NCBI RefSeq assembly: GCF_041146795.1
Contig: NC_135177.1
Coordinates: 21,312,560 to 21,376,559 of the forward strand
Direction: 5' to 3'
DNA: 64,000 nucleotides
From: Maylandia zebra
Taxonomy: Eukaryota; Chordata; Actinopteri; Cichliformes; Cichlidae
Below, piece after piece: positions 2,644 through 19,470 of this stretch; the first letter of the stretch is position 1; the number at the start of each line of letters is the position of its first letter. A model generated the notes under the pieces. That model searched no databases. It was given only the letters and a program-made list of their open reading frames with translations, and had not been told where the DNA came from. The position numbers and the translations under genes are program-made.

Positions 2644-5046
2644 GAATAATTAATTCTACAAGGACAAGTCAGATTAAAGTAATTTGGAGTCACCCGATAA
2701 ATCCAATATTCATTGTATTTTATGTTTTATGTTCTTCTCTGTCTTTTCTGCCTCCTTAGGGAAATATGGAGCCATTTAACTGCTAAATGAGTCACTCTCA
2801 TTAACAGGCTGTCCAAGGCTGTCTGCCTTGTACTTTAGTGCTGAGCAGGGAGTATAATGTGGGTTTTAGAGCTTTTTCACTTTAAATAGCTTACTACTAC
2901 TGATGCTTAAAGAAAACCATGGCTTCCTAAAACAACTAAACTGCAAGTCAGACAAAAATACCTTTTTGAAACTCGCTATGGGGTCCTTTAAAGATAAAAA
3001 CAAAACATGGAATTGATATTACAGACATTATTATGATAATAATTGAAATTATTGTAGCTCCAGTTAGCTTGTTGGGCTAACGATGTAAGCTAGCTCGTTT
3101 AAGTTAACTATAACTTATTTATATTTTTATTTAGAAACCGGCTATAGAATTAAATGTCTGTTTTAGAGTACTGCCACGTCAATAAATCTTTTATATAACT
3201 GATAGAGTCCAGCTTATAACAGAAATGAGGCTGATAAAATAACTTTAACAACTTTTAACAGTGCTTGTTTTCCACAAACTCACCTTCAAGTGCTCAAAGG
3301 TGCCTTCCCGGTTGCCATAACAACCACATCTCTCTCGCTATTAGTTCTGTACAATTAATCAGTTCAGAAAGCTCTTTCAACATATGAAACCTTTTTGTTT
3401 GTCTGTCTAGCTATCTGTCCTCTATGTAGCATAGGTGTGGGGTGGTTGATGGTTGGAGTGTACAGCTGATGGGATTACTGCATCCACTCCTGGTAGGACT
3501 CCAAACACGACTTTTTTGTGGATTACGTCGATGGAGAGGAGGTGCCTGTATGAAGGATTTAAACATGTCCTGCATGCAAGCATCGATCAGCAGGATTAGC
3601 AAACTTCAAGTAATTTGTCTGCCACCTGCAGAGGGAGCATCTGGTTCTTAGCAGGTGAGCAACAACACACAACACATCACACTGTGTGATTATTTATTCA
3701 ACAAAAACGAAGGCAAAATAAAGAGGTGTGTGAAAAAATAAGTACAAAGCAGCCAGGTGACTGATTAACTGATCATCAGTAAGTGTGAGAACCTCTATAA
3801 AAACGTAACTTTTGACAGTTTGTTGGCATCCAGCGTTACAGTGTGTGTTAACACAATATCAAGGAGGAAAAACATCAGCAATCATCTTAAAGAAGCAACT
3901 GGTGCTGCCTATCAATGTGGGGCGGTTTATAAAGTCATTTCCAAACAATCTAAACTCCATTATTCTATAGTGAGGAAGATAATTCACAAATGGAAAACAC
4001 TGAAAGTAGTTGCCAATCTTCACAGAACTTGATTTCCCAGGAAATTAACCCCAAGATCAGATCAAAAAACCCAAGAGCTACCTTTCAAACTCTACATGCC
4101 TCCGCATGTTAAATGGTAATGTTTATGACAGCACAATTAGAAACCTGATTCAAATTCTGTGCTGGGACCTTAGGGGAGCTGAGCTGTGATGCAACGCTGT
4201 AAGTTCCCGCATTCCTCCAGAATGATGCGAGAGACTGATGAAGTAATATAGAAAACCATTACTTCAAGTTATTGCTGCTAAAGGTGGTTTTATAAGCAAC
4301 TGAATCGTGGGCTGTGCTTAGTTTTTCATACACTGCTTCTGCATTGTGGTCTAGTTTTTGTTACGTAATGACATGTTATAAAATCTTATGTGCTGTTGTT
4401 TTTAAGGTCGTATTTAAATAATATTAGAATCTGGTATGTCCTGATTGATAAAACCTTAGAATTAAAGAGGGTGTATTATTGCTAATGTCACAAAATAACC
4501 TAAATTACAACTACAAACAAATGTGTGGAAGTATGGGCATGTTACAGTATACAGGAATAATATGAGTACACCTGTATATGAGACAGGCTTTCAGTCACAT
4601 AAACAAATGTAAGTATATATCTATCCTGCCACTGTACTTGGCTTCTTATGCTGGTTGAAAACATTACATCAGTATTTCCATACAAATAATTTTATATTCC
4701 TTATTGGATCTGAGCTTTATTGTCAAAACCAAACATTGTGGTTTGTGAAAGGACAGGAAAAGAATAAAAATCACTTGAAACAGCTCATTTATTAGATACA
4801 CAAAAGAAGAAACCAGACCTGTACCACACAGAACTGCCTCTAAATCCCCCAAATTTCTTTTAAAAATATTACAAAACATCTATAAACATACACATTTGTA
4901 ATAAATAAGATAAAAAAATAATTATACTAGTGCATATAATGTAAGATTTACAGAATTTACGTCAGTATTTCATAGAAAAGGGAATGGATCCTTGGTAAAC
5001 TGCAGTAATTGATAAAAATATCCATCTTGTCAGTTTGCGTGGAAGA
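2644..5046. other. Intergenic: msh5 5' flank to SPSB-gene 3' end
   Basis: This holds the msh5 upstream region and the SPSB-gene downstream region. Apart from the Tc1-like fragment at about 3690-4160 it is AT-rich sequence with no supported gene. Open frames at 3411-3651 and 4664-4879 have no recognisable family. Confidence 0.5.
3690..4160 (+). mobile_element. Tc1-like transposon fragment
   Basis: The plus-strand translation has SNHLKEATGAAYQCGAVYKV, then VRKIIHKWKTLKVVANLHRT and TPRSDQKTQE. These correspond to the N-terminal DNA-binding region of Tc1-family transposases (a VRKIIHKWK...VANLPRSGRP style block). Only the N-terminal third is present, with an in-frame stop after the HRT block, so this is a dead remnant. 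The catalytic DDE part is not seen. Confidence 0.75.
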
Positions 5047-7707
5047 TTAATGACTGGAAGCCAGGCAGCGCTGGAGAAAAGGGGGTAGAGGCAATTTGTC
5101 CATATGTTTTAACCTTTTCTGTCCTAAATTCTGACGAATCGACAGTCCGCATAAAGCCATGAGGGATGGCGGATCTCCTGAGAACAAGCCAGAAACAACA
5201 TAGTTTAGTATAAGGCTGTGTTTTATCTTAATATTTCTGCGTACAAAGACAAATAAATAAATGAGGCACTCACGTGTAGAACCATTCATGTAGCGCAGTC
5301 GAATGCAGGCTCCTCCTCTCACACTGCTCACTGTTGGGAACAGCTCCACATCTCGAGGGAGGTCCTTAAAAGCTACGCCAAGGAAGCTGCCATTGACAAC
5401 AAAACCCAGAGTCCCGGCATCGGCATCCAGAACCAGCAGGACACGCTCAGGAATGAGGAGAGGTGTTTGTGCCATCTTTGCACTTGATGAAGAGGAGGAC
5501 TGTGACTTTGAATCAGCTGCCATCTCAGAGTGACACCTCTTACTCCCATTTTCTGGGTAAAGCTTCAGAGTTTGCCCACCATGCCAGAGCTGATTGGTTT
5601 TGAGCTCCCATCCCCAGGACTGTGAATCTGCCCCCACCAGCACATTGTACCCTGAAGACTGCAGGGGACAGTCCTGCCTCGAAATGCCCACGACGGCATG
5701 AGTCCCTCTGTGTTCGGGCCTCCACACCACCTCCCAGACATGAAGTCCACTCTTCACTCCTATCTCCGCCCTCACGCCATCGCTGCTAAGCTCAGCGGGT
5801 GAGCGGGTCGCTTCCTGTTTGCAGGGGGACAGCAGGAAGTGAAGAGAACGGTGGACTGTGCTCCAGTGTGAACGACTGTCTCCTGGGGAAACTGGAGGGG
5901 AGTTCAGCGTAACTGCAAGGCGAGAGGAGGTTGGGACGGCCAGTGGGAGGAATGGTGATGATGAAAAGGGAGGCCTGTCGGCTGTCCTGCTGCAAAACCA
6001 ACGTGACAGACTCAGACCCATCAGTGCAAACGGCAGGGTCACTCCTATGTGTTGTCAGAGGAGAACTATGGAGAACAACAAAAAAACAAAATGCGACTTA
6101 TTAAACCTTAGATATGCAGTCATTAGAGAAAGAAAGTTTGAAAAACGAATTGGACGCTTAATGCTTCCATAGAAATTAAGAGTGTAAGTAGCAGCCAGGT
6201 CCTGCTCATCAAATGTACTTAATTAACTGATCATCAGCAAGCATGAGCACGTCTATAAAAGCAAAAGGTTTTCAGTTTGCTGGTCTGGAGCATTCACAGT
6301 GTGGAGGTTAAAAATCCTCATTCAGACTCAGAAGGCAGGCAGGATTAAACAAACAATGAGCCTTAGTCCATGAAACAAAGTCCAAAAGGCAAGGCAAAGC
6401 AAAAAGTCAGTCCACATAAACATCACAAGCGAACAAAAATGACATCTAAAACAGGCAGAACCAAAGACTTGACAAGTACAGGATGACCCAAGAAAGGCGA
6501 ACATTTCTCTGTTGTTGAAAATGTCAACTGCGAAAATAAAGCTGCCAGATAAATGGACAGAGGAGCAGAAGTCCAAAGCAGTTTGGCATGAAAATATACA
6601 AATAGTTCAAATGTGTCCTTAAGTACAGTCCTTGAGTATAGGACTAAGTGCAAAGGTGTCGTATATTTAGAACTCATAACATTACTCAGTGAGAAATGCC
6701 TCCGTCAACGGTGGGTCTATTTAATTTAAAAACCATGAAATATGTGGTAAAAGTAATTATCTCAGGCACACAGTGTTCTCAGTTTGCAGCAGGATAAAAG
6801 GAGGAGGTGGTTTGATATGAGAATATATATTCCAGAAAATGAACAAAGTTCTGAGCCCCTGGATAGTGTTGTTTGGTTTTTAGCAATATTTTTGCTAACT
6901 AATCCTGAGTTTCAGTTACACAGCTGAGAAGATTGCCTAAGTTTATCTTACAACAGCGATGCATATATGTGTTAGAAAAAATTTAGTGCTTCTATCATGG
7001 ATTTCTCTGTCTTAATCTACTTTCCTGGCAACTTTGTATAGTTTTTACAGGAATTGGAACATTGGTGTAGCAGGGGATACTAGGAAGCTCTATTTCAACA
7101 TTATACACTTGGATTTTTTGTTGAAAATTATTTGATAATTATTTATGACAGTTACAGTTTTTATATTTAAATATCGTATTTAAACACGTTTAAATAGCTT
7201 AAAGCATATTTTTAGCAATAATGAAACAAATACAATGTTAAGGAACAGACAAGGGTGGCCAATTAAGCTAAAAAGAAAAGGGGGGGGGGGGTTAGCATAA
7301 AAATTGTTGAATTTTTTTTTGTTAACTACATGAAATATAAAGGAAACAAATAGTTTTATAAATAAATACAGATTTGTTAAAGGTTAAGAAGGGTACTTCT
7401 CCGAACATGATACAAATGCTCTATAATAAAATTCACCAGAATTGAGGAGATCGGGTGTTAGATGCACAAACTTTTGGGGGAAGGATCCTCAGACCTCTTC
7501 ATGATATCCTCCCAATAAAGTCAGACCTACTCCCGTGTATTTATTTAACGTCACCTGTTAAGGTGGAGCAGAATAAAGTGAACTAGAAGAATACAGTAGT
7601 TAAAAAAAAAAAAAAAAAGACAAAGTCTCCATCGAGCTAAGCAAACAGTGTAGACAGGGACTTCTATCAGCCTTACCCGCTGGTGTGGCTCCTTCTCTGG
7701 TGCTCAT
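5047..7707 (-). CDS. SPRY domain-containing SOCS box protein (SPSB family), complete
   Basis: SPSB proteins are substrate receptors of Elongin B/C-Cullin 5 ubiquitin ligases. Coding exons, minus strand: 7677-7707 (MSTREGATPA plus one base), 5274-6044 and 5047-5177, with consistent phases, giving 310 residues. The SPRY core shows GLHVWEVVW, RGTHAVVGIS, SWGWEL, VLLVLDADAGTLGFVVNG and CIRLRYMNG. The C-terminal SOCS box has a BC box (SLMALCGLSIRQNL) and a Cul5-type LPLPPFL. Compared with SPSB1/2/4 there is a serine-rich insertion (SKSQSSSSSSAK) before the late strands, and the pocket tryptophan of the family's AVWGHC motif reads SVRGGAC. The start in exon 1 rests on a matching donor (GTAAGG) and acceptor (ACACATAG); an alternative start is the MGLSLS methionine at 6019-6021, which resembles the family N-terminus MGQ. 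The best guess is an SPSB2-like paralogue; the exact orthology is unresolved. Confidence 0.85.
6185..6310 (+). repeat. Tc1-like remnant in SPSB-gene intron 1
   Basis: The stretch with AACTGATCATCAGCAAGCA and TTCAGTTTGCTGGTCTGGAG resembles bases 3765-3845 of the larger Tc1-like fragment (GATCATCAGTAAGTGTGAGA, AGTTTGTTGGCATCCAG). It is a short 5' remnant of the same family. The rest of this intron (6311-7676) holds a G homopolymer near 7279 and AT-rich sequence only. Confidence 0.5.
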
Positions 7708-13860: not shown

Positions 13861-14694
13861 CTTATATCATTGTCAAAACAGGTCACTATTGCAACTGAGA
13901 ATAAAAACTTAAATAATAAATACATTTAATCTCTGTCTGGTCAATGAAAATAACAGACTGATCACACCTTACTTCCTAGGTTCCTTCCTGTAACGGAGAC
14001 ATTCTGAATTTGTCAGTAATTACATAAACAGTTCTTGCATCATCAGCCAGAAATATGAGAAATTACACAAGGCTATGCGTAATACACCACATTCCTCGGT
14101 TTTTACCACAGTTTTAGTCCAAAACTTTCTAACTTCCTTGTAACACGTGTGATAAGAATGACTACACACAAGTAGCAGAAACCCAAAAAGCAGAAGTTGG
14201 TGTGTCAGGACCAAGGTGTTGCAATCACAGCTGCAGGGTTCGCAGGTCCCTGTGGATTTACTTTGGTAACGAAAGAAGTTACATCCAGTCCTTCCAGTCC
14301 TTCTCACTAAAATGCACAAAATACTTTGAAACATCCTCATAAACATCTGCAAAGAAGATTTGAATCACTATTTACCAAGTGATTCAAATCTTCTTTTCTG
14401 CCTTTGCTGGCATGTTACGGAGTTTGTTTTAACAACAACACATTAAATGCTTTGACAAGTCTCTTTTTACTTCACTAAAACCACTTAGTGAAGGAATTTA
14501 AGTTGTTCGGGTTAAACCAGATTGGTTTTTAAAGAGTCTGATGATAAGCTAAAGCAAAAAAATTAACTGTGCCTACGTGAGTAATATCAATAAGAAGATT
14601 GGTACTCAAGGTTTCTTAGCAGAATATTACAAAGCATCACACTGCCTCTGCAGGCCCAGCTTCTTACCAAAAGGTGTCCTCGCAGCTACCTTAC
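13861..14694. other. Spacer with 18-bp perfect hairpin
   Basis: There is no supported gene. The segment is related to 29.9-30.9 kb (GCAGGTCCCTGTGGATTT near 14,240 against CACAGGTCCCTGTGGATTT near 30,235; a GAATATTACA block near 14,622 and 30,839). A perfect inverted repeat lies at 14,351-14,368 and 14,379-14,396 with a 10-base loop. A large transposon begins at 14,695. Confidence 0.6.
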
Positions 14695-15079
14695 TATGGA
14701 ACTCCAAAGTGTTCAAAATTAAATAAATAAATAGGTCAAGATGAAATAAATAACTATGTGAATAAATAAGACACAGATATGTAATGTGAGAATGATATTG
14801 TGAAATAATGGAACACATTTTGAAAAAAATGCTCATTATTGTGAAATATATTGCATTCTGCTATATAAATTTACTTATTATTGTGAAATATTATTTCATG
14901 GTCATTATTTTTCACAATAACAGAGATTATTCCTGAGGCATTTTATTTATTTCCAGCCGTTTATATTCCAAAATGACCTTTTTTCAAAGTCAGTCTTTAT
15001 TTCAAAATCCCGTTTTTCCCGATGGTCTATTTATTTCATAATGCGACTTTTCAGCAGAATGACTTTGTCTGTCAATCAA
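14695..15079 (+). repeat. Left terminal inverted repeat of the 4.77-kb transposon
   Basis: This is the reverse complement of 19,079-19,464, running from TATGGAACTCCAAAGTG inward to GACTTTGTCTGTCAATCA. It is AT-rich, with repeated TTATTGTGAAATA motifs that could be subterminal protein-binding sites. Confidence 0.92.
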
Positions 15080-15289
15080 GAAAGACAGGGCGGAGCCAGT
15101 TGTGTGATTGGTTGCTCCTTTACTCAGACGTAAGTAATAGCACATGAATTGTCGATTTAGGTTTAATGGTGCAATGCATCTCCTATGCAGCTGGCGGCAG
15201 TATGCAGCTCAAAATAAACTTAAGGCACCGACAAATGCAAAACACTGGGCGCGAATAACGTTACAGGTGTATCAATTCTTGTGAAGGGC

Positions 15290-17122
15290 ATGGCTGCAGG
15301 AAACAAGTCCGTTTCTGAGTTACTCAGAGAACTTGTTAACCGCTTAGATTGAACGTCTTCACCTCAGTCTGCGTATTGCAGCAGTGTACTGGAGATGAAG
15401 TGGTCCCTGATCCAAGTTCTCATCACAACCGCACAGTGTTAACGTTAGCAAATGCTAACGCTATCACAGCTAGCTCCACTCCACGAAACGCTGTTCAGGG
15501 TAAGTAACGATATGTTATTATTGCTTGGTTAGTCTGTCTGTCTGGCAAAAATGAGCTTTTTAATCAGTTTAGTCACAGATTTTTTTTAATACTGTTTTTT
15601 ATCATAGCAAAGAATTCTATAAATTAGGTAAGAGAAAATAATTGTCTTCTGGGTTAATGTCTGTATTACTATTTACATTGTTGTAGGTAATAGTTATTCA
15701 TGACTGTTTTAAAGTGGCTTATCTTCTGTGCTAATATGGAAGACAAGTAATCTATGTGAAAGAAAAGAAAGCAATTTTAGTTCAACGTAGTGATTTTGTA
15801 AGTGGGTATAATTTGAAAATGCTTTTACTAGTACAGTGGATGTTCTTTAAATATTTAACATTTAAAGTGTGTGTCACTTTACAGACTCCAACTTCAGTTT
15901 TGGTTTGGTCTCACCGTTGTAGGTCATAACACAAACAAGTCGTCAAGTCAAGCAGCTGAGGAAAGGGCTTAAGGAAACCATGGTATGGCCGCTTCTGACA
16001 GAAAGATCAGACATCATTCCTCCTTTCTTACCAAGGGAATCAGAGACTGCTCCCTGTTGTGAGGTAAGGTCAGGTCACATCTTTTAACATCTGAATAGTA
16101 AAGCTATTTGGTTAATTTATGAAGGATGAACATTAATTGTTGACACAAAACACCAATATACTGTTTTGTATGCGTGGGTTAGTTGAACAGCTGGGTTACA
16201 TTTAATAAAAATACACCTAATGTTGCTGATGCTCTTAAGACTACAAGATAAGTAAAGCTATAAAATGACTGTGGCCTGCCACAGAAGATGAAGATGAGGA
16301 AGAAGAGGAATGCTCTCGAGGATAAATGCAGAGTGGCAGGTTACCTTCGGTCCTTCATTGAAAATGGTAAGTCTGCTGCGATAGGTATTTTGCCATTGGT
16401 TTTCTCTGATTATACTTTGGTAAATTACATACAGTCCAGTGATCTTGGGTCATTAACAAAGTACACTATAGTAGAGCTGGGCGATATGAGATTTTTTCAT
16501 ATCACGATATTTATTTTTATTTATTTTTTTATAAAAAGGACAAGAGCGGTGAGGTCTATCGCAATAGTTTAATTTTTCTATTGAGAAAAAGTTATTTCGC
16601 AATACATATCGTTATCGTTCTATCGCCCAGCTCTACACTATAGTATAATTTTGTTTTGTTATTTGCTCCATGCAATACATAAGAGTGGTGGCATTATCAG
16701 TTGCACTAGAATTGTATGTAGACTACTTTTAGCTTTGTTAACATAAAAATATCTATAAAAGCTACAACAGCAATTTGAGTGGGGCAAAAATGTCTGGTGC
16801 CCTGTATGTAAGTGGTCATCTTTTATGGTATTTCTCCATAAAAGATTCAAAATAATGAATATAGGATGTCATTATAGTTTAAAACAATCTTCTGTTGCAG
16901 CATCTTGTGCACAACAAAAAGCCCTCATCAAGTTTTGGACAGGATGGGAAGTCTTGCCGAGAAATGACTGTGGAAGTGGTCAACAGCAATCTTCCAAAGT
17001 CTTCCACCGGTTTTGAAGTACTACGTCTTCCTGCACACTACTGTACCTATGAGTCATTTCTAATGGACATTCAGGTGTGTCTCAACTCTACTGACTCAGG
17101 TTTTGGTCTGGTTTACGATTGA
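15290..17122 (+). pseudogene. HECT-type E3 ligase remnant carried by the transposon
   Basis: Segments with splice-like borders read on the plus strand: an N-terminal piece from 15,290 (MAAGNKSVSELLRELV), 15,923-16,063 (RQVKQLRKGLKETMVWPLL and SDIIPPFLPRE), 16,285-16,366 (EDKCRVAGYLRSFIEN) and 16,901-17,122 (ALIKFWTGWEVLP, then STGFEVLRLPAHY and SGFGLV at the end). This order matches, from memory, the C-terminal half of fish proteins labelled G2/M phase-specific E3 ubiquitin ligase-like, whose HECT lobe has a catalytic cysteine in STCF. Here that position is glycine (ACC GGT TTT). There are early stops and frame changes within the first, third and fourth segments, and no N-lobe of the HECT domain was found. 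As it stands it cannot be an active ligase. Confidence 0.75.
16472..16635. mobile_element. hAT-type MITE nested in the transposon
   Basis: This is a 164-bp element with terminal inverted repeats TAGAGCTGGGCGAT / ATCGCCCAGCTCTA and a perfect 8-bp target duplication CACTATAG at 16,464-16,471 and 16,636-16,643. The GAGCTGGGCGATAT terminus is typical of a common fish hAT MITE. It has no coding capacity and is younger than its host element. Confidence 0.93.
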
Positions 17123-17660
17123 TTTCATAACCACATGGTAAAATTAGACCATTTCTTCTTTCTTGCATCACATTACTGTACTCTGTGTTCAAAGAAACGG
17201 ACAATCTAGTGAGTTCTAGTTCTTTTTAATACACTTGACAGTGAAAAATACAGAGTACAGGTGTGCATTTATGGCTTTTTTAATATAAACTGATGAAGAG
17301 TTCAGATATCAAAATCAGTTGTTCACTGTACATTATAAATTACACAATATGTTTTGTTTATACTCGCTACCGATACAAAAAAAATTTCTAGAAAAAATTA
17401 TTTGAATTAAGATGTTACACTACTCTGTGTTCATTGTATTAAATCTGCTCAGAGTTGACATGTACTGTATATCCAACCAAGAAATGAATATCATTAAAGT
17501 GACAGCTGTATAAAACAAATCCTGTTTTATAGCCACTCACTGTTTTGTTGAAAATGAAATTGGTTATGCTGTTTTGAGTCAGTATTAGCTACAAAGCTGT
17601 AGAAATTAAAAAAAAAAAATCCTCCTGACATAGAAACTGATTAAATGTAATAATGTCTTT

Positions 17661-18892
17661 CTACAAGTGATTTTGAAGTATTGGTAGCACAGCAGGGTCT
17701 TGTTCATTCAGTGCATCTGGGAGCTGAATCTCAGGAATGGTGATCTCATTTGATGGGCAGCGATTATGTTGTCCTGTCCAGTCCACACCATAATCCTCAT
17801 CAACCTGAAAGAGCATGCACATGTTTTAAATCTAAACTGAAGAGGTGTTTCCTGCAGCTGTTCCTAGATGGACTTATTGAGTCTGCCAGGGCCTATGTGA
17901 GTTGCTTAGGCATTGGCTACCAACTAATTATTCATTCACCCATTCTAGGTCAGGATTGGTTCTCTTCAGGTATAACAAATTTAACTTTGTTTAAAGTATT
18001 GCCATCTATACCTGACAGGTGGGATAAAAGAGAATGGCTTGGGAGGCGCACAGCAAATCTCAAAGTTTTCCAATTAATGCTGAAAGAACCAAGGATGTAA
18101 ATGTATTCTTGTTTTAGCTTTACCGAAGACACCAGAGAAAGTATATCTATAATGCTGCTGAAATAGACAAAACCATTTCAATAAACTCGCTATTTAACAT
18201 CAACCTTGTTATGCGTTATCAGAGAACAATCAACTGCAAACAGCAATGAAACATTCAACTATGTACTATTTAAAGCACTAATGACCCTGTTGTCTAACAA
18301 GATGTGATAAGTAAGTAGACTGTGGAAAGCTGGTGGGTCTACTCTCTGTGTAAAAGGTTCCTACAGGCTCCACTGACCCCAGTCTCCGAGTTAACACACT
18401 AACAGCTAACACTGCTAAACGTGTCTCGGCGCCGATAGCTTTAGCCGTAGCTGCCCCACTTAGTTTAGACAGTAACAAAAAAAAGTAAGCGATAATAATT
18501 CATTGTCAAACGTCATAATTAAGGTCAACACCTAAACAATGCTGTGTACAGAATCACACAGGTGCTCAATTACAGCATAAACTTACCTTAGACCATCCTC
18601 CGTCATTTTCCTCCTAATTGTGCTCGGAGACACAGAAAATGTATCGGCAATTACCCCGACGGTTATCCCGGACAGCACTAAAGTCCTGAGTGCTGCACCG
18701 GGATTTCTAGACGTGGACGGCCAACATTTGAAGACTGTTCTTCCTCGGCGTATTCCAAACGAACACGGTGCTGAATTGATCTTAAACCTTTGACAATGCT
18801 GTCATCGATGCGAACATCTTGAAGAGCAATTATCATCCCAAGCATTTCAGAAACATCTAAACGACTCAAAACAGTATCTACAGGTAAATGAT
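17661..18892 (-). pseudogene. Helix-turn-helix (integrase-like) gene remnant of the transposon
   Basis: On the minus strand the first segment (about 18,587-18,892) reads LDVSEMLGMIIALQDVRI, VGRPRLEIPVQ and, after a one-base frame change, LVLSGITVGVIADTFSVSPS and TIRRKMTEDGL. It ends at a GTAAG donor. The GRPRLEIP block followed by a resolvase-like helix-turn-helix is the N-terminal signature, as I recall it, of fish proteins with an integrase core domain. The last segment (17,661 to about 17,803) reads VDEDYGVDWTGQ and EITIPEIQLPDALNE before a stop, an acidic tail like the C-terminus of those proteins. The catalytic DDE core that should lie between was not found. Function as the element's recombinase is an inference. 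Confidence 0.6.
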
Positions 18893-19078
18893 CCCTCTCT
18901 ATCTGATTTGCTTAAATGAGCAGAACTGACTGAAGTTCACACCAGTCCGCCATCCTCCGTGACTTTTGACCTAGCACGCTGTTGCTAGCTGCAGTAGCCG
19001 TCCGCGGAGCCGGTATCCAGGAAAACTAGTCGATGGTAAACGATAAGCCAATAGGTGCAAAGGTCCAGCCCACTTACA

Positions 19079-19464
19079 TTGATTGACAGACAAAGTCATT
19101 CTGCTGAAAAGTCGCATTATGAAATAAATAGACCATCGGGAAAAACGGGATTTTGAAATAAAGACTGACTTTGAAAAAAGGTCATTTTGGACTAAAAACG
19201 GCTGGAAATAAATAAAATGCCTCAGGAATAATCTCTGTTATTGTGAAAAATAATGACCATGAAATAATATTTCACAATAATAAGTAAATTTATATAGCAG
19301 AATGCAATATATTTCACAATAATGAGCATTTTTTTTCAAAATGTGTTCCATTATTTCACAATATCATTCTCACATTACATATCTGTGTCTTATTTATTCA
19401 CATAGTTATTTATTTCATCTTGACCTATTTATTTATTTAATTTTGAACACTTTGGAGTTCCATA
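19079..19464 (-). repeat. Right terminal inverted repeat of the 4.77-kb transposon
   Basis: This is the inverted partner of 14,695-15,079. One visible difference is GGACTAAAAACGG here against the complement of CCGTTTATATTCC on the left; most of the rest matches base for base. Confidence 0.92.
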
Positions 19465-19470
19465 CCTTAC

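Follow-up and report, generated by a model that had tools for sequence, protein, structure and literature searches.

A recently amplified, non-autonomous and probably IS3EU-type transposon of Maylandia zebra with remnants of convergent HECT and transposase genes

The 64,000 nucleotides considered here, called the window throughout, come from contig NC_135177.1 of the cichlid Maylandia zebra (positions 21,312,560 to 21,376,559, or C11:21312560-21376559 in the genome searched, which comprises 962 Mb in 63 contigs), and positions 14695-19464 of this window are a 4,770-bp DNA transposon. This element is very probably a non-autonomous, recently amplified member of the IS3EU type, derived from an ancestor in which long terminal inverted repeats (TIRs) enclosed two convergent genes, one for a HECT ubiquitin ligase and one for a DDE transposase, and reduced to its 4.77-kb form by two internal deletions. 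Recent transposition of the family is evident from its TIRs, its target-site duplications (TSDs), and the low divergence among its copies. The ancestral layout, assembled from several decayed copies, would have consisted of TIRs of the form TATGG..CCATA, with the HECT gene towards the left TIR and, towards the right one, a transposase gene made of a helix-turn-helix exon followed by a Pfam rva_4 integrase core.

The boundaries of the element are directly legible. The left TIR (14695-15079, plus strand, 385 bp) starts with TATGG, the right TIR (19079-19464, minus strand, 386 bp) ends with CCATA, and their alignment of 386 columns contains 2 mismatches and one gap of a single base. Each is adjoined by a copy of the duplication CCTTAC, at 14689-14694 on the left and 19465-19470 on the right, whereas two random 6-mers of the window match with a frequency of 0.0004. 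The position, the long near-identical repeats, and the duplication given in a preliminary description of this DNA are thereby confirmed. The 6-bp TSD is also reproducible in other copies. Twelve copies could be read at both ends, corresponding to 11 independent sites (L009 and L010 are one duplicated locus), and all 12 have TATGG..CCATA termini. An exact, adjoining 6-bp duplication occurs at 5 of the 11 sites (the window, L015, L018, L019, and the C17 copy), a 6-bp duplication set off at one end by an extra base at three more (L009/L010, L021, and L024), and a duplication with five of six bases matching at one (L014). The extra base, placed where one TSD copy would otherwise meet the TIR, is always a C before TATGG when read inwards, and it could be a base brought along from the donor site. 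Eight further copies were read at one end, and three of them (L020, L025, and L028) are clipped there. A longer duplication of 8 bp, TACCTTAC, with a right end in ..CCA, was considered for the window copy, where it is possible because TA stands before CCTTAC on the left; it fits this copy alone, and the others favour 6 bp and TA..TA ends. A search of the rest of the window for an unoccupied counterpart of the insertion site found none.

The TIRs led to at least 40 scored matches in the fish's own genome, from 99 candidates, with identities of 94-100%. The 32 of these 40 that were read lie at 22 places; those left out are C21:31592322 and, on C2 and C33, seven matches about 348 bp long. An alignment of nine copies that have both ends and measure 4.75-5.3 kb, among them the window copy, represents eight independent sites. 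The copies differ pairwise by 0.13-1.6%, and because the divergence is this low, the element is, as had been proposed, a young transposon. The closest pair is the duplicated locus L009/L010, whose flanks are held in common, and the least difference otherwise is 0.19%; L011 and L012 share one flank. The transposase core is absent from all nine aligned copies. A 12.2-kb copy on C17 was considered as an autonomous parent and rejected, its extra 7.4 kb being nested elements within the same 4.77-kb form; each nested element is flanked by a 4-bp overlap, and two have long open reading frames that, by eye, encode reverse transcriptases of long interspersed nuclear elements (LINEs). The L018 copy reaches 8.1 kb through a 3.3-kb insert that interrupts one of its TIRs. 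At L021, L023, L028, and L047 a TIR is present with none of the eight exon peptides used as queries, a set from which the rva_4 core was left out.

Within the window copy, the two genes lie tail to tail, and each is a remnant. The plus-strand HECT gene retains its start and its C-terminal part, the exons between them being absent. Its first exon (15290-15501, plus strand) carries an in-frame stop and a frameshift and is open in L025, L046, and L049; a further exon (VKQLRKGLKETMVWPLLTERSD...) at 15947-16063, plus strand, recurs in L046 and L049; and an acidic exon (..EDEDEEEEECS / LEDKCRVAGYLRSFIEN) at 16270-16368, plus strand, with ends approximated by eye, has a broken frame. The last exon (16895-17122, plus strand, with its stop at 17122) encodes the C-lobe, in which we take the TCF motif to mark the catalytic cysteine; the window reads Gly (STGFEV), in contrast to Cys (STCFEV) in the C19 relative described below. 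Gly stands at this position in 8 of the 9 aligned copies, the window included, and the pattern was not found in the ninth, L015. Against the C-lobe of Pfam PF00632 the window piece scores E=0.002 and 18.2 bits, under the curated cut-off of 23.9, and sequence searches of the PDB with this piece gave no match. The suggestion that the HECT protein of this particular copy acts on host factors is thus not supported, with the middle exons absent, the frame shifted, and Gly in place of the catalytic Cys.

The minus-strand gene consists of the first and last exons of a transposase, the core exons being absent. The first (18586-18953, minus strand), frameshifted here and contained in a 148-residue open frame in L039, matches helix-turn-helix models and no zinc finger; against PF02796 the window exon gives E=6e-5 and 23.5 bits, just below the cut-off of 23.8, and the intact L039 exon gives 19.7 bits. 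What had been described as a separate, host-like helix-turn-helix gene is the first exon of the element's own transposase. The last exon (17664-17804, minus strand) is 80% identical to the exon that lies behind the rva_4 core in L049. With its core exons absent and its first exon frameshifted, the window copy cannot move itself.

Each of the two putative internal deletions takes out the middle of one gene. The first junction would lie at 15811-15820 (blastn coordinates), where the flanks overlap by 10-11 bp and where L046 is longer by 3.6 kb, holding HECT exons 2-3 and further exons, and L049 by 1.2 kb. The second would lie at 18041-18050, where the alignments to L039 and L049 stop and where relatives carry the transposase core exons. 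Relative to fuller copies, then, the gene middles are missing, and the earlier proposal that this copy is an internal-deletion derivative holds.

The fullest relative is a copy on C19, composed of L027, L049, L044, and L050. Behind a left TIR that is 96.6% identical and a 9.7-kb insert, it has HECT exons on one strand and, tail to tail with them on the other, transposase exons with the rva_4 core, after which come exons 2 and 1 and what is left of the right TIR, its inner part. Its pieces adjoin in element coordinates (1-444 with 443-1126, and 4658-4255 with 4260-4093), as expected for one insertion split by nested inserts. The rva_4 core matches Pfam PF24764 with E values of 5.3e-23 and 2.9e-16 for unjoined exons, 4.5e-30 for two exons joined, and 3e-26 for a third exon; a sequence search of the PDB returned a single weak match, an integrase (E 0.68). 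Pieces of this transposase hold the acidic motifs HIDGN, SDKGGEN, and IERLWRD, which we take to be the D, D, and E motifs of a DDE enzyme. The HECT exons, joined across a frameshift, match PF00632 with E=1.3e-7 and 32 bits, above the cut-off of 23.9, and they retain Cys at the catalytic position. A HECT gene and an integrase-type gene, looked for in longer copies, are thus present inside TIRs of the same family, in a decayed copy.

Other copies supply single halves of the same layout. In L046 (C5, TIR 96%), HECT exons 1-3 are followed in order by further exons as far as the middle exon; a 2.4-kb insert separates the TIR from exon 1, and downstream lies what, judged by eye, is a Tc1-like element. 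None of the upstream HECT exon pieces of L046, single or joined, matched a Pfam family, and we assign them presumptively to the HECT N-lobe from their position and from related fish proteins. L025 (C47, TIR 97.6%, with the outer end clipped) has open HECT exons 1-3 and then other sequence. On the transposase side, L039 (C10) has exon 1, exon 2, and then a sequence that by eye is a LINE, and at C21:31597878 an rva_4 match lies, by its coordinates, 5.6 kb inside a TIR of the window family, behind transposase exon 1. L051 and L052 contain HECT exons, with no transposase match in the stretch read and no TIR of the window family found. In L052, two arms of 211 nt around a 3-nt spacer make positions 4303-4727 a near-perfect palindrome.

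The preliminary description regarded this layout as non-standard and its 6-bp duplication as excluding the common fish superfamilies; a place outside the known superfamilies is not supported, the ends and the TSD being those of IS3EU. In the parts of the two papers available, TA..TA termini are universal among complete IS3EU families and 6-bp TSDs are usual (PMC10045372), and fungal members have TAYGG..CCRTA ends and TIRs of more than 30 bp (PMC12730594). The window family has TATGG..CCATA ends, a 6-bp TSD, and TIRs of 385/386 bp. IS3EU families in the same portions of those papers (PMC10045372, PMC12730594) also have non-autonomous derivatives, like those seen here, and a DDE transposase related to IS3/IS481 with no HHCC motif upstream, which the transposase of the present family, with its rva_4 core, its putative D, D, and E motifs, and a first exon without a zinc-finger match, may resemble. 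The differences from the published families, as far as these texts extend, are the 385-bp TIR and a HECT ligase as the second gene, and the word HECT has 0 occurrences in the main text of PMC10045372 and PMC12730594. In fungal TET+ families the second gene is likewise opposite in orientation to the transposase; it encodes an alpha-kinase and is separated from the transposase by a TET/JBP gene, whereas here it is HECT (PMC12730594, in the part available). Styx of Zymoseptoria, by the available text of PMC10853768, is similar in being IS3EU-related, with 6-bp TSDs, mobile copies that have a degenerate transposase, and extra genes; it differs in being fungal, in its 36-bp TIR, and in the nature of those genes, HECT having 0 occurrences in that text. 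GingerRoot, which has a 6-bp TSD and mostly TA..TA ends, is not separated from IS3EU in the available part of PMC10045372. No description of a HECT/transposase pair was found in the literature searched, which covers subscription journals and Repbase reports poorly.

It is improbable that some other superfamily with duplications of about 6 bp, such as Polinton or Dada, includes the element. Dada does have duplications of about that length, yet TA..TA and TAYGG..CCRTA ends combined with 6 bp, and a core that matches Pfam rva_4, speak for IS3EU, and we take the element's size and gene content not to be those of Polinton. A duplication of 6 bp is found in Polinton as well (PMC10045372, in the part available).

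The association of the two domains extends beyond the window family. Searches of the genome gave 161 matches to PF24764 (150 of 323 candidates scored, 150 matches used) and 141 to PF00632 (129 of 366 candidates scored, 141 used), which merge, among the matches listed, into 135 rva_4 loci and 95 HECT loci. Nineteen of the 95 HECT loci have a listed rva_4 locus no more than 10 kb away, and all 19 pairs are convergent, whereas random placement (2,000 trials, with contig ends set at the largest coordinate seen) gave a mean of 0.34 pairs and a maximum of 3. For this reason HECT appears to be a gene that partners these transposons repeatedly and not the product of a single capture, and, as the pairing recurs in the genome, any capture of HECT from a host is probably old. 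The gaps between partners are about 1.1 kb in eight pairs, about 1.6 kb in five, 2.2-2.3 kb in four, and 3.5 and 6.2 kb in one each, which suggests several families; the loci of one gap group probably arose as copies within a single family or by duplication of a locus, so that the 19 pairs are not 19 independent events. On C17, a divergent HECT exon (44%) at 19156265, plus strand, faces an rva_4 locus at 19163074-19163660, minus strand. No match to either Pfam model was found in 14 control genomes, a prokaryotic collection that carries little weight here, and of viral contigs 10 stretches fit a pattern, none of which was confirmed.

The same counts bear on whether unrelated elements that nested by chance brought the HECT and integrase genes together. 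The fuller copies do contain much nested sequence, but 19 convergent pairs out of 19, where 0.34 were expected, make such an origin exceedingly improbable, and so does the constant place of HECT exon 1, which directly follows the TIR in the window form, in L025, and in L026, and follows it after the inserts of 2.4 kb in L046 and 9.7 kb in C19.

What the HECT gene contributes is a separate matter. We consider the chances about even that animal IS3EU elements have a conserved module of two genes, HECT and a convergent rva_4 transposase, in which the element's own E3 ligase is kept by selection across several families. It is rather unlikely, if conceivable, that HECT is a passenger, an old hitch-hiker between the TIRs with no part in transposition. 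In keeping with a passenger, the 4.77-kb copies multiplied without a working HECT gene, and of the 135 rva_4 loci listed only 19 belong to the pairs, a figure that is an undercount, since weak HECT exons were missed. Yet a useless gene would be expected to disappear, and the pairing recurs with different gaps, suggestive of several families, and its orientation never varies. Nor do the amplified copies without a working HECT decide its function, because other copies could supply the protein and the deleted ones could borrow it.

Several observations weigh against the derivation from a two-gene IS3EU ancestor. The C19 copy is decayed, has neither HECT exons 2-3 nor the outer right TIR, shows no readable TSD, and has 9.7 kb inserted between its left TIR and HECT exon 1; L046, L025, and L039 are each only half an element; and no intact copy of the family was found in the fish's own genome. 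A TSD was not seen at two of the 11 independent sites (L013 and L022). The kinship with IS3EU is based on termini, TSD, and Pfam matches and not on a tree. The 19 pairs are other loci, at which TIRs and TSDs were not read and among which the window's own family does not figure, and most rva_4 loci have no HECT neighbour among the matches listed.

For the descent from such an ancestor, which we continue to favour, the following course can be proposed. The two deletions may be the outcome of abortive gap repair following excision. The resulting form, having kept both TIRs, would have spread with transposase presumably supplied by other copies, and such movement in trans is likely because the nine aligned copies are without the transposase core. 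Insertion produces the 6-bp duplication, by what would be cut-and-paste chemistry. The HECT protein may be of use to the element, with a silencing factor or the transposase as conceivable targets. If the two genes do form a conserved module, its E3 ligase would modulate the transposase or eliminate a silencing factor of the host, in a manner like the kinases and TET dioxygenases of fungal IS3EU elements, and the many places with a ligase and a transposase in a single arrangement would make a testable case of a mobile element that carries its own means of acting on host protein modification. Some fish HECT gene models might then be transposon genes.

Two dense groups of matches were seen in the genome. 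At C6:11.90-13.10 Mb, an array of about 40 HECT-exon matches on both strands, mostly with open frames of about 100-120 residues, may represent a HECT gene or a family of elements that has been amplified, and at C9:15.15-15.55 Mb five near-equal rva_4 matches within 0.4 Mb perhaps form a segmental array.

As to its surroundings, the element lies inside a cluster of minus-strand genes with C1-set exons (window 11300-39195; exons at 11.3, 24.3, 28.3, 33.4, and 38.8 kb), which, judged by eye, look like class II genes of the major histocompatibility complex, and the cluster contains tandem duplications. A 335-residue open frame with SPRY and SOCS-box domains is located at window 5047-6054 on the minus strand.

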